Shown here piece after piece: positions 9,634 through 13,903 of a stretch of DNA of 58,842 nucleotides (within the stretch, counting starts at the first letter, position 1; each line of letters begins with the position of its first letter). The stretch comes from an uncultured Gammaproteobacteria bacterium (GTDB lineage: Bacteria; Pseudomonadota; Gammaproteobacteria; Steroidobacterales; Woeseiaceae): positions 1 to 58,842 of the forward strand of contig CAJXYT010000006.1 of assembly GCA_913063505.1 (NCBI GenBank), in the 5' to 3' direction. The notes under the pieces were generated by a model, which saw only the letters and a list, made by a program, of their open reading frames with translations, was not told where the DNA came from and made no database searches. A program made the position numbers and the translations under genes.

Positions 9634-9662
9634 GCCGCTTGCTTTTCCAGCGAAATAAGAAG

Positions 9663-9688
9663 GCCCGGCATTCGCCGGGCTTTTTTTT
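9663..9688 (+). terminator. Intrinsic terminator of groES-groEL
   Basis: A perfect 7-bp stem GCCCGGC (9663-9669) / GCCGGGC (9674-9680) with an ATTC loop is followed by eight T residues (9681-9688). Confidence 0.95.
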
Positions 9689-9757
9689 GGCGGTGCAAAA
9701 TCTCTTCCGTGCTATCTTTCACAGTAGGTCGATCAGAAGAATAACAAGGTAAGCGCT

Positions 9758-9859
9758 ATGCATAACTCATACAGATTCAATGGCTCTTTCATCCTGCTTT
9801 GTACAGCTCTCGTCGCAGGCTGCGACTTCCTTGAAAGCAACGCAGGAATAATCAAATAA
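9758..9859 (+). CDS. Candidate 33-residue lipoprotein upstream of metA
   Basis: A 33-codon frame with a Shine-Dalgarno-like AAGGT about 8 bases before its ATG. The product has polar N-terminal residues, a hydrophobic core (SFILLCTALVAG) and a lipobox ending LVAGC with Cys22, leaving a mature peptide of about 12 residues. The TAA stop directly abuts the metA ATG. This resembles the tiny entericidin-like or leader lipoproteins often missed by annotation. No homologue is recognised; a leader with a purely regulatory role is the alternative. Confidence 0.55.
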   Translation: MHNSYRFNGSFILLCTALVAGCDFLESNAGIIK

Positions 9860-10927
9860 ATGCCACTGGTTGCACACAATAATCTGCCAGCATTCAAGCG
9901 TCTTCGAGATCGCGGCCAGCAGGTGTTATCCGCGGAGCGGGCCGAGCGGCAGGATATCCGAGAGTTGCATATCGGCTTTCTGAACATGATGCCGGACGCG
10001 GCGCTGACGGCAACGGAACATCAGTTTATTCGTCTTGTTGGCGCTAGCAACCAAATTGCTCAGTTCTATATTTACCCATTCACGATTCCTGAAATGAACC
10101 GTGGCGCTGATGCGATCAAACACATCGATCAACACTACTTTGAGTTTTCGGAGTTGCGTGAGCAAGGACTGGATGCGCTGATTATTACGGGGGCTAACCC
10201 TGCCAATCCTATCCTCGAGGATGAAGCATTCTGGGGTCCTCTCATGGAGATCTTCGATTGGGCCGCAGACAACGTTGCCTCGATGCTGTGCTCCTGTCTC
10301 GCGACTCATGCTCTGGTCCAGTCCAGACATGAGATAAAACGGCAGCGACTGCCGCGTAAGAAATGGGGTGTATACAGTCACACGATCACTGAGCCAAAGC
10401 ACCCACTAACCTGGGAGGTTAACACCCACTTTGACGCCCCACACTCCCGCTACAATGACGTGAGCAAAGAGCATATGGAGAAGGCCGGTTTAAAGGTGCT
10501 TGCCGAAAGCGAAGTCGCGGGTGTTCATCTTGCGGTCAGTCCAGATCAATTCCGTGTGGTCTATTTTCAGGGGCACCCAGAATACAATGCCGTGAGTCTG
10601 CTGAAAGAATACAAGCGCGAGGTGATGAGATTCATCAATGATGTGCGTGACACGGAGCCACCGCTACCGCGCAACTATTTTCCTGCTGAAGCACAAAAGA
10701 TCGCGTTCGAATTCCTGGCCGCCGCCCTATCAGCCAAAACTGCGGGTGCCGAAGTACCGCCGTTCCCGGACGCCGAATTGGAGGCGCTGGTCTACAATAC
10801 TTGGGGCGACACGGGCAAGGCGATAGTTAATAACTGGCTCGGCCTAGTTTATCAATTGACCAATCTGGACCGGCGCTTGCAGTTCATGGACGGCGTCGAT
10901 CCCGACGATCCCTTAGGCCTGAAATAG
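9860..10927 (+). CDS. metA: Homoserine O-succinyltransferase family protein (MetA)
   Basis: MetA/HTS family acyltransferase that activates homoserine for methionine synthesis. Its 355 residues exceed the roughly 309 of E. coli MetA, mainly at the C-terminus. Family features are the ELHIGFLNMMPDAAL segment, LIITGANP, the nucleophile region MLCSCLATHALVQ (probable catalytic Cys146), GVYSHTI, APHSRY and the GHPEYN segment near residue 238 with the active-site His. Acyl donor choice (succinyl- or acetyl-CoA) cannot be decided from family membership. The next intact gene is a gamma-synthase type PLP enzyme, matching the pathway. Confidence 0.88.
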   Translation: MPLVAHNNLPAFKRLRDRGQQVLSAERAERQDIRELHIGFLNMMPDAALTATEHQFIRLVGASNQIAQFYIYPFTIPEMNRGADAIKHIDQHYFEFSELREQGLDALIITGANPANPILEDEAFWGPLMEIFDWAADNVASMLCSCLATHALVQSRHEIKRQRLPRKKWGVYSHTITEPKHPLTWEVNTHFDAPHSRYNDVSKEHMEKAGLKVLAESEVAGVHLAVSPDQFRVVYFQGHPEYNAVSLLKEYKREVMRFINDVRDTEPPLPRNYFPAEAQKIAFEFLAAALSAKTAGAEVPPFPDAELEALVYNTWGDTGKAIVNNWLGLVYQLTNLDRRLQFMDGVDPDDPLGLK

Positions 10928-11031: not shown

Positions 11032-12183
11032 ATGGGTTTTAAGACCAGACAGATTCATGCGGGCGTAACGCCTGATCCGCTGACTGGGTCGATTCTGACA
11101 CCGATCTATCAGACGACCACGTATGTACAAGATTCAGTCGATGAATACCTGGCGAAGGGGTACTCCTACTCACGGTCGGGTAATCCAACGGTTCGTGCGC
11201 TTGAACTCAAAATGACAGATCTGGAAGACGCGACAGATTCAATCTGCTTCGGTACCGGAATAGCAGCTGTCCAGGGTGTGATGTTGGCGTTTCTTAACGC
11301 AGGCGATCATGCCATTATTTCCGATGTAGCATACGGCGGCACGTACCGTTTGTGCACGAAAATCCTGAGTCGATTTGGTGTTGAGTTCACGTTTGTCGAT
11401 GGCTCCAATCTCGAGGCGGTTGCTGCAGCGCTCAAAGACAACACAACACTGTTCCTGACAGAAACGCCCGCTAACCCGACGATGAAGTGCACCGACATCG
11501 CTGGTGTATCGAAAATCGCTCAGAAGGCCGGCGCAGTGCATGCAGTGGACAACACGTTCCTGACGCCATATTTCCAACGGCCACTGGAACTCGGCGCCGA
11601 TATATCGATATACAGCACGACGAAATACATGGATGGTCACAATGCGACAATCGGTGGCGCTGCTGTCTGTGCGACGCAGGAGCATGCTGATGCAGTGCGC
11701 TTCATACAGGGCAGCACTGGTAGCATCATGTCACCGCAGGTTGCCTGGTTGACGTCGCAGGGCTGCAAGACGATGTCGCTTCGATTAGATGCTCAGTCGG
11801 CCAATGCGATGGCCATCGCAGAGTATCTCGAAGGCCACGACAAGGTCGAGCAAGTCAGCTATCCGGGCCTGAAGTCATTTCCACAGTACGAGCTGGCAAG
11901 TAGCCAGGCCACGGGCTATGGGGCAATGCTTTGGTTCGAGGTAAAAGGCGGATTGACGGCAGGCAAGAAACTCATGGACAACATTGATGTCTTTAGCCTC
12001 GCCGAGAATCTCGGTTCAGTTGAGTCTCTTATTACACATCCGGTCACGATGACGCACGCAGCTGTTGAGGAGGCGGAGCGAATTCGAGTCGGGATCATTG
12101 ATGGACTTGTTCGCGTATCCGTCGGTCTTGAAGACGTTGAGGACTTGATCGAAGCGTTGGACAAGGCGCTCGCACAGGTCTGA
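11032..12183 (+). CDS. metB: Cystathionine gamma-synthase type PLP enzyme (MetB/MetZ family)
   Basis: Cys/Met metabolism PLP enzyme of 383 residues, a normal length. The PLP lysine is K198 in the YSTTKYMDGH motif, with D173 in VHAVDNTFLTP contacting the cofactor and the YSRSGNPT phosphate-binding region near residue 45. Context after metA suggests it condenses the activated homoserine with cysteine (gamma-synthase) or sulfide (sulfhydrylase). Gamma-lyase activity cannot be excluded, since sequence rarely separates these. AGGAG precedes the ATG by 6 bases. Confidence 0.85.
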   Translation: MGFKTRQIHAGVTPDPLTGSILTPIYQTTTYVQDSVDEYLAKGYSYSRSGNPTVRALELKMTDLEDATDSICFGTGIAAVQGVMLAFLNAGDHAIISDVAYGGTYRLCTKILSRFGVEFTFVDGSNLEAVAAALKDNTTLFLTETPANPTMKCTDIAGVSKIAQKAGAVHAVDNTFLTPYFQRPLELGADISIYSTTKYMDGHNATIGGAAVCATQEHADAVRFIQGSTGSIMSPQVAWLTSQGCKTMSLRLDAQSANAMAIAEYLEGHDKVEQVSYPGLKSFPQYELASSQATGYGAMLWFEVKGGLTAGKKLMDNIDVFSLAENLGSVESLITHPVTMTHAAVEEAERIRVGIIDGLVRVSVGLEDVEDLIEALDKALAQV

Positions 12184-12187
12184 TTCT

Positions 12188-12340
12188 ATGTCGCACTTTA
12201 ATTATTGCGATACGCTTTCACTGCGTGCCGGCCAGACAGTTTATGATGAGTCTGGTGCGTGCGTGACACGGATCTATCAAACGACTTCATTTGTATTTCC
12301 GGATACGGATACCGCAGCGCTGAGCCGATGCGCGCAGTGA
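12188..12340 (+). pseudogene. N-terminal remnant of a second Cys/Met PLP enzyme (MetY-like)
   Basis: Starting 5 bases after the metB-type gene, an ATG frame of 50 codons contains TLSLRAGQTVYDESG and TRIYQTTSFVFPDTDTAAL. This is the characteristic N-terminus of O-acetylhomoserine sulfhydrylase and related enzymes. The homology stops near 12322 and the frame ends at TGA 12338-12340; the catalytic domain is absent. The 3' end overlaps the tail of msrQ on the opposite strand, so a deletion probably joined the two. MetY rather than MetB is inferred from the DTD segment. Confidence 0.75.
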
Positions 12341-12937
12341 GCGCTGCTTCCAGCGCCATGTAATACGAGCGGTTAGCAGCACGCAAAGAATTCCCGCATA
12401 AATCAGTGGCTCGGTAATATCTTTCTTAACCTGCCACCAGTAATGCCAGACACCGAGAATACCGACCACATAGGCCATGTTGTGCAGTAATTGCCAGCGT
12501 TTGCCCATACGTCGGCGAATCGCCATGAATGACGTCATCGCTAGTGCAGTCAATAGAACCACAGCCATGAATCCCAACGTGATGAAAGGTCTCTCTGTAA
12601 GGTCTTCGAGAATGTCGCTAAGGCGCAATTCTTGATCCAGCACCAACCATGTAAGAAAGTGCATAAACGCGTAAAAGAAAGTGAACAGACCGAGCATACG
12701 TCTGAAGCGCGACAACCAATTCCAGTCGGTCAATCGTCGAAGCGGTGTGACCGCGAGCACAATCATGATGAACCGCAGGGCCCAGTTGCCGAAGCGATCG
12801 AGTATTGCTTCGATCTGATTGGCACCTAGGCTGCCTGTGACGCCATAGGCGTCGCCGATTAGTAGCAGCAAAGGCAGCAGACACACTAGGAAGACGATCG
12901 GTTTCCAGATGAACCGAATTTGCTGCAATGCATTCAT
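12287..12937 (-). CDS. msrQ: MsrQ, heme membrane subunit of methionine sulfoxide reductase system
   Basis: Membrane b-type cytochrome of the YedZ/MsrQ family that passes quinol electrons to periplasmic MsrP. Its 216 residues contain about six predicted helices and heme-ligand histidines in the GNWALRFIMIVLAVTPLRRL, FYAFMHFLTW and WHYWWQVKKD regions. It follows msrP by 6 bases. The last dozen or so residues (after about SLRAS) are read from the antisense strand of the MetY-like remnant, so the original C-terminus was probably lost in a deletion. Confidence 0.92.
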   Translation of the reverse strand: MNALQQIRFIWKPIVFLVCLLPLLLLIGDAYGVTGSLGANQIEAILDRFGNWALRFIMIVLAVTPLRRLTDWNWLSRFRRMLGLFTFFYAFMHFLTWLVLDQELRLSDILEDLTERPFITLGFMAVVLLTALAMTSFMAIRRRMGKRWQLLHNMAYVVGILGVWHYWWQVKKDITEPLIYAGILCVLLTARITWRWKQRSLRASAQRCGIRIRKYK

Positions 12938-12943
12938 AAGTAC

Positions 12944-13903
12944 TTAGAAATTGCGTCGAAGATTGAGGTCTTTGTAGAGGTGTGCAACCTGCTCGCCGTA
13001 TCCATTGAACATTAGTGTTTCGCGTTTCTTATCGAAAATTCCACCACCGATGCGGCGCTCGCGAGCCTGACTCCAGCGTGGGTGGTCGACTTCTGGATTT
13101 ACGTTGGCATAGAAGCCATATTCGCTCGGGTTCGCCATGTTCCAGCTCGTCTTCGGTTGGTTCGACATGAACTTGATACCAACGATGCTCTTGATGCCCT
13201 TGAAACCATACTTCCAAGGCACTACCAATCGTATGGGTGCGCCATTCTGGTTCGGAATGGCATTACCATAAAGACCAACCGCTAAGATTGCCAGCGGGTT
13301 GGTTGCTTCTGCAATAGTGAGTCCTTCTCGATACGGCCAATCCAGCGACCGACCTTTTTGACCTGGCATTCGCTCACGATCTTCGAGCGTCTCAAACGCA
13401 ACGTATTGTGCTTTCGACGCAGGTTGGAAGTACTTCACGACATCAGCGAGAGAAATGCCCACCCAGGGGATAACCATGGACCAGGCTTCGACGCATCGCA
13501 TACGGTATATCCGCTCCTCGAGATCGAAAGGCTTCATAAAGTCGTCGAAGTCGAACGCGCCAGTTTTTTCCGCATGGCCTGATACTTTGATCGACCAGGG
13601 ACGAGGTTTGAATTCTTTCGCGTTGGCGACGGGGTCGCCCTTCTGTAAACCGAACTCGTAAAAGTTGTTGTATGTGGAGATGTCCTCGAAGCTATTTAGT
13701 GTCTCGCTGGTGCTGAGGGGGCTTTTGGCGATGTTTGCGAGCGGTGCCAGTTGAGAGTCGGACACGATGGCGCCAATGGCGCCTGACGAAATGATGGATC
13801 CTCCGGCGATCGCACCGGCTCGAATGAAGTCACGACGATTGAGGTAATTGGCTTCACTTGTGATCTCGGACGGCCGAATATCATTTGGTTTTCTAATTAG
13901 CAC
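12944..13903 (-). CDS. msrP: MsrP, periplasmic molybdopterin methionine sulfoxide reductase
   Basis: Molybdenum-cofactor catalytic subunit that repairs oxidised methionine in periplasmic proteins. Its 319 residues begin with a Tat signal ([15 protein letters not shown], residues 22-36), fitting export with a folded cofactor. The Mo-ligand cysteine is in [15 protein letters not shown] near residue 137, and [14 protein letters not shown] is a family signature. It is transcribed with msrQ just downstream. Confidence 0.95.

Follow-up and report, generated by a model that had tools for sequence, protein, structure and literature searches.

The metA-metB-msrQ locus

The window, meaning the whole stretch of 58,842 nucleotides that was analysed, is the entire contig C6 of a 75-contig draft genome (G000; 1.45 Mb, 90.2% complete) of an uncultured member of the Woeseiaceae. 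On its plus strand metA is followed by a gene for a metB-like PLP enzyme and by a 50-codon open frame at 12188-12340, after which msrQ and msrP run in on the minus strand. The features of the locus are as follows.

9860-10927, plus strand: metA family homoserine O-succinyl/acetyltransferase gene, the upstream partner (PF04204, 280.8 bits; NCBIfam NF003776, 464.4 bits, cut-off 358)
11032-12183, plus strand: gene for an intact metB-like PLP enzyme of 383 aa, left border of the putative deletion (PF01053, 464.8 bits)
12188-12319, plus strand: metY remnant that keeps its start codon and comprises codons 1-44 out of about 432 (tblastn and MetY N-terminal profile)
12320-12337, no strand: junction that holds the breakpoint, not clearly assignable to metY or to msrQ
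12338-12340, plus strand: TGA that closes the remnant frame, inside msrQ-homologous DNA; the same TGA is found in the relative G010
12287-12937, minus strand: msrQ, 216 aa, with its conserved body at 12338-12937 (NCBIfam NF003831, 180.3 bits, cut-off 130)
12320-12322, minus strand: CAG codon, Gln206 of MsrQ (codon listing of three MsrQ ends and a column alignment)
12290-12322, minus strand: 11-residue MsrQ tail QRCGIRIRKYK, antisense to metY codons 35-45 and followed by TGA at 12289-12287
12944-13903, minus strand: msrP, catalytic subunit of MsrPQ and intact partner of msrQ (79% identity to the gene adjoining msrQ in the relative G013)

Only 4 bases separate the metB stop from the start of metY behind it. 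The metB label for 11032-12183 is itself unsure: the gene stays under every NCBIfam equivalog cut-off shown (best 434.9 versus 513), so the exact reaction of its predicted enzyme is not fixed. The cut-off for cystathionine gamma-synthase is exceeded (577.3 versus 504.55) by another gene of the same genome, C11:28768-29889. MsrQ exceeds the threshold of its curated family and is 72.5% identical to the G013 MsrQ over residues 1-200. The neighbouring gene we take to be msrP from its position beside msrQ and from general features of the family. Upstream of metA, the genomes G051, G052 and G013 carry a gene read from its sequence as an S9-type peptidase between groEL and metA. In the window, as in G010, only about 226 bases (9634-9859) are left in that place, and the other side of the metA-metB pair has therefore been compacted too.

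Identity of the metY stub

Within the 50-codon frame, residues 6-44 are recognised by the NCBIfam O-acetylhomoserine sulfhydrylase models with a best E value of 2.6e-7. A tblastn search with the intact 432-residue MetY of G013 aligns residues 1-44 of that protein to 12188-12319 at 70% identity (E 8e-13), and the corresponding stub of G010 aligns to it at 64% identity (E 3.5e-10). PF01053 reaches 14.5 bits on the frame, which is under its cut-off of 27, and Pfam alone would have missed the stub. A profile was also built from 28 intact MetY proteins, each represented by its first 60 residues, and against it the window frame scores 64.6 bits and the G010 stub 54.7 bits. The best of 5000 control pieces reaches 6.7 bits; these were random 320-nt pieces drawn from 49 loci with the PLP-enzyme genes masked and with L169, L170, L172 and L174 left out. 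The first-pass annotation, which had recognised the N-terminus of a MetY directly after metB and had asked whether the 50-codon frame would find a sulfhydrylase match at all, is borne out by these searches. It had also placed the loss of homology near 12322, in agreement with intact metY matches that stop at 12315-12319 and MsrQ homology that starts at 12338.

The likeness to the MetY family is thus one of sequence, and extends over residues 1-44 only. A full PLP fold is marked by the PLP-binding lysine motif, and no such fold is present in the frame. Since the frame ends after 50 codons and its homology covers 44 of the 432 residues, it is better regarded as a remnant than as a member of MetY.

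A junction common to three genomes

The DNA of 12100-12420 was searched against 107 genomes of the family, 22 of which match. One match runs across the junction only in the window genome and in G010, and a third genome, G065, is found there as two pieces that flank it. Among the 22, the matches of intact genomes that continue through the metY start end at 12315 or 12319. In direct comparison G010 aligns across the junction over 1000 bases with no gap and G065 as one 790-base match at 75%. The G065 stub is not recognised by the MetY profile (2.0 bits), but its alignment to the window scores 79 against a shuffle mean of 30 (sd 8), a value that none of 1000 shuffles reaches. Because of this alignment and of its place in the same clade, G065 is taken to carry the same scar. 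The window genome, G010 and G065 come out as monophyletic, with a support of 100/100, in a 62-row metB tree, and this trio is sister to G043, which has an intact metY, together with G051; G052 pairs with G013. Within the trio the window genome and G010 form a pair with a support of 99/48, a grouping with which DNA identity agrees (92% versus 75%). The trio genomes measure 1.4-1.5 Mb and most other listed members of the genus 2.0-5.4 Mb.

Since the draft is split into 75 contigs, of which the window is a single one, metB and the metY start could in principle have been joined artificially to msrQ during assembly. The first-pass annotation had recommended a check of 12300-12340 for such an error. 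The same junction, diverged in sequence, is carried by G010 and G065, for which reason an assembly error was rejected as its source and the probability of a chimera is practically nil. The exact 36-base junction sequence gave no match in a contig collection from which near records may be left out, and no paper on the metY-msrQ junction was found among the listed publications on overlapping genes and on Woeseiaceae.

Ancestral gene order and the extent of the deletion

Among the loci probed, msrQ lies within reach of metB only in the trio, G043, G051, G052 and G013. G043 and G013 have the order metA-metB followed by a full metY, with msrQ-msrP further on, so that the intact gene stands at the same place in relatives, as would be expected for a deletion pseudogene. 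In G013 the genes are metA, metB, metY (432 residues), an alpha/beta hydrolase, a 167-residue protein, a 1050-residue protein that is kinase-like from a reading of its sequence, a 147-residue protein, a DMSP-demethylase-like aminomethyltransferase (361.8 bits, under the cut-off of 410), a 166-residue protein, msrQ and msrP. The same probes detect metY, the hydrolase, the aminomethyltransferase, msrQ and msrP in G043, and did not find the other genes of the G013 interval there. In G043 about 7.1 kb separate metY codon 44 from the end of msrQ, and in G013 about 8.5 kb.

Because these two relatives keep a full metY with msrQ 7-8.5 kb further on, the deletion appears to have taken nearly all of metY together with the genes up to msrQ. 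Taken as a whole, the locus is very probably a deletion scar that consists of a metY stub and a later loss of the MsrQ stop, a product of ordinary reductive evolution as judged from comparative sequence analysis. The ancestor of the trio would have lost the DNA from metY codon 44 to the last few msrQ codons, some 7-8.5 kb by the measure of the relatives, in one step or in several. The limits of the loss fall at the 3' ends of metB and, on the opposite strand, msrQ, both of which were retained, and may have been set by selection for those genes. A single deletion had been proposed in the first-pass annotation; a deletion holds as the cause, but its extent was underestimated, as several genes went with metY, and the event is old enough to be common to the window genome, G010 and G065. 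A repeat-mediated deletion was also considered and rejected, as none of the 17 direct-repeat families in the G043 interval pairs the two breakpoint positions, G043 being a relative only and not the ancestor itself.

The DNA that is missing from the trio holds, in G013 and G043, a gene most similar to DMSP demethylase (L064 9796-10959), which in these two genomes thus lies close to the methionine and MsrPQ genes.

The C-terminal tail of MsrQ

Read from 12322 down to 12290, the tail QRCGIRIRKYK is codon for codon the antisense of remnant codons 35-45; the first-pass annotation had likewise read the end of MsrQ as antisense to the remnant. MsrQ matches were obtained in 33 of the 40 genomes searched, with loci given for 30. 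From 28 relative loci, one (L057) was dropped as it is cut by a contig end, and the remaining 27 MsrQ proteins are 191-222 aa long, with widely varying tails; the G043 protein has 208 residues. The comparison of MsrQ C-termini that had been recommended finds QRCGIRIRKYK in none of these 27 aligned relatives, an outcome that favours the first-pass annotation. The MsrQ proteins of G010 and G065 are both 205 residues in length and end in LRAAA-TAG and LRISE-TAA, respectively, while the window reads LRASA-CAG and then continues through the tail to TGA. The codon at 12320-12322, which is where metY homology ends, is therefore a stop in both sister lineages, as is typical of a convergent overlap that arises through stop loss.

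The tail is most simply explained as a later stop-loss point mutation in the lineage of the window, since G010 and G065 both stop at this codon and one loss is then needed instead of two gains. By parsimony from these two genomes the ancestral MsrQ would have ended at a stop right at the junction, and a change from TAG or TAA to CAG in the window lineage would have extended MsrQ, up to the next stop, by 11 codons that are antisense to the stub, creating a convergent overlap. The body of MsrQ, MsrP and metB would stay functional.

It had been claimed instead that the deletion itself removed the natural msrQ stop, in which case the ancestor would have been long-tailed and G010 and G065 would each have gained a stop later. 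The last residues of MsrQ in relatives (KKPGRR in G013) are unrecognisable in the trio beyond residue 200, and the original stop may for this reason indeed have gone with the deletion. As the sole cause of the tail such a removal is nonetheless unlikely, for it requires two independent gains at one codon, TAG in G010 and TAA in G065, and the 205-aa proteins of these genomes fall within the 191-222 aa of the 27 relatives. The two accounts may also be combined: the native stop would have disappeared with the deleted DNA, and its immediate replacement would have come from the antisense of metY codon 45. On the stop-loss reading, which is preferred here, the stub and the MsrQ tail most likely do nothing.

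Decay of the stub

Over the 33 stub codons that lie outside the msrQ overlap, the window and G010 differ by 3 synonymous and 9 non-synonymous changes, which corresponds to a dN/dS of 0.89 from small counts (0.76 for the whole stub). Between the same two genomes the values are 0.06 for metB, 0.12 for metA, 0.12 for msrP and 0.25 for the msrQ body. In G065 the start codon has been lost and stops are present in all frames. The relaxed selection that marks a deletion pseudogene is thus seen in the stub, and the pattern fits a sequence that is drifting near-neutrally; after the deletion the stub would have changed with little constraint on the way to the window and G010 and have been ruined in G065.

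Both the window and G010 keep the frame open over its 50 codons, from an identical start to an identical TGA, as might be expected of a functional short protein or a regulatory leader peptide kept from MetY. Its dN/dS of 0.89, the lost start and closed frames of G065, and the lack of residues 45-432 including the region of the PLP-binding lysine all speak against a working micropeptide, which was rejected on the near-neutral change and the broken G065 copy and is highly improbable. A role of the scar as a transcription terminator between the convergent metB and msrQ genes was likewise considered. As RNA, 12184-12345 has a more stable predicted fold than its shuffled versions (z -2.74, a value reached by 2 of 200), but the signal is absent from G010 (z -0.29, 75 of 200) and G065 (z -0.95, 30 of 200), and a consensus scan of 12000-12600 detected neither a terminator-like site nor a promoter. 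With the low folding energy of the window unrepeated in its sisters, a terminator or other structured RNA was set aside, and is scarcely to be credited.

Apparent repeated loss of metY

The window and L169-L233 make up 66 loci, of which 28 have an intact metY directly after metB. In three more the metY start is cut by a contig end and another three end too soon to tell; the remainder have no metY after metB, and many of these belong to distant relatives that perhaps never had one. The genus is represented by 24 genomes with a metB of the window type (22 whole, 2 in pieces). A metY that is 82-100% identical to that of G013 is present in 17 of them, and seven have no close metY, namely the trio, G051, G052, G069 and G071, the metB of which runs off its contig.

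Because the metB tree implies them within a metY-bearing group, separate losses have apparently occurred in the trio, G051, G052, G069 (L196) and L177, that is, four besides that of the trio; L226, with only 369 bases after metB, may be another. Directly after metB, G051 keeps a metY stub of about 20 codons (12.3 bits, L172 11150-11230); the stub of G052 in that position is shorter and frame-shifted (10.7 bits, L174 11150-11220), and none of the 5000 control pieces reaches either score. No stub is detectable with the MetY N-terminal profile in G069 and L177. A more ambitious interpretation, in which the 11-residue tail is translated and is now a part of MsrQ born from the antisense of a dead enzyme gene, and in which the repeated losses reflect selection against the direct sulfhydrylation route, is very unlikely.

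A second full-length sulfhydrylase is encoded by G010 (632.7 bits) and G065 (630.2 bits, both versus 495.1). It was not found in the draft of the window genome, where its expected place falls in a contig gap: the flanks of the second metY of G010 match the very end of C56 and the very start of C38. This absence is thus uninformative, a loss of all O-acetylhomoserine sulfhydrylase in the window genome is not supported, and the predicted gene content need not lack sulfhydrylase function. A tRNA-Arg (tcg) lies downstream of the second metY in G010 (L166 4733-4809) and accounts for short repeated matches in the flank search.

Significance and comparison with known systems

The scar is, with high certainty, a real but ordinary piece of genome decay in a small-genome marine bacterium. 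It offers a clear and dated example of how, within a shrinking genome, a gene is lost, its stub decays and an overlap then arises through stop loss, and it serves as a warning that a short frame next to a retained gene may be a scar. Should metY be lost here as frequently as it seems, with five events inferred, the group would be suited to the study of why the direct sulfhydrylation enzyme is dispensable next to metB; otherwise the metY-msrQ scar is ordinary.

Three known systems bear comparison with the locus. The stub resembles MetY (NCBIfam TIGR01326, PRK08134) in its first 44 residues and in its position directly after metB, but differs in that residues 45-432 are missing and no enzyme can be made. 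In the parts of the account consulted, metagenome-assembled genomes of Woeseiaceae average 3.1 Mbp in sediment and 1.7 Mbp in the water column (PMC12175321). The trio is alike in its small genomes, from which a planktonic life may be inferred, and the metY-msrQ locus is not treated in those passages. Stop loss with 3' elongation to the next stop is a well-described kind of event (PMC3887535; PMC2174442), and the convergent overlaps of Mycoplasma appear, according to one of these sources, to come from mutation of a stop (PMC2174442). The msrQ of the window is similar in that translation, once the stop is lost, would carry on to another stop within the neighbouring gene, but here that neighbour is a pseudogene stub and the overlap is with dead sequence.
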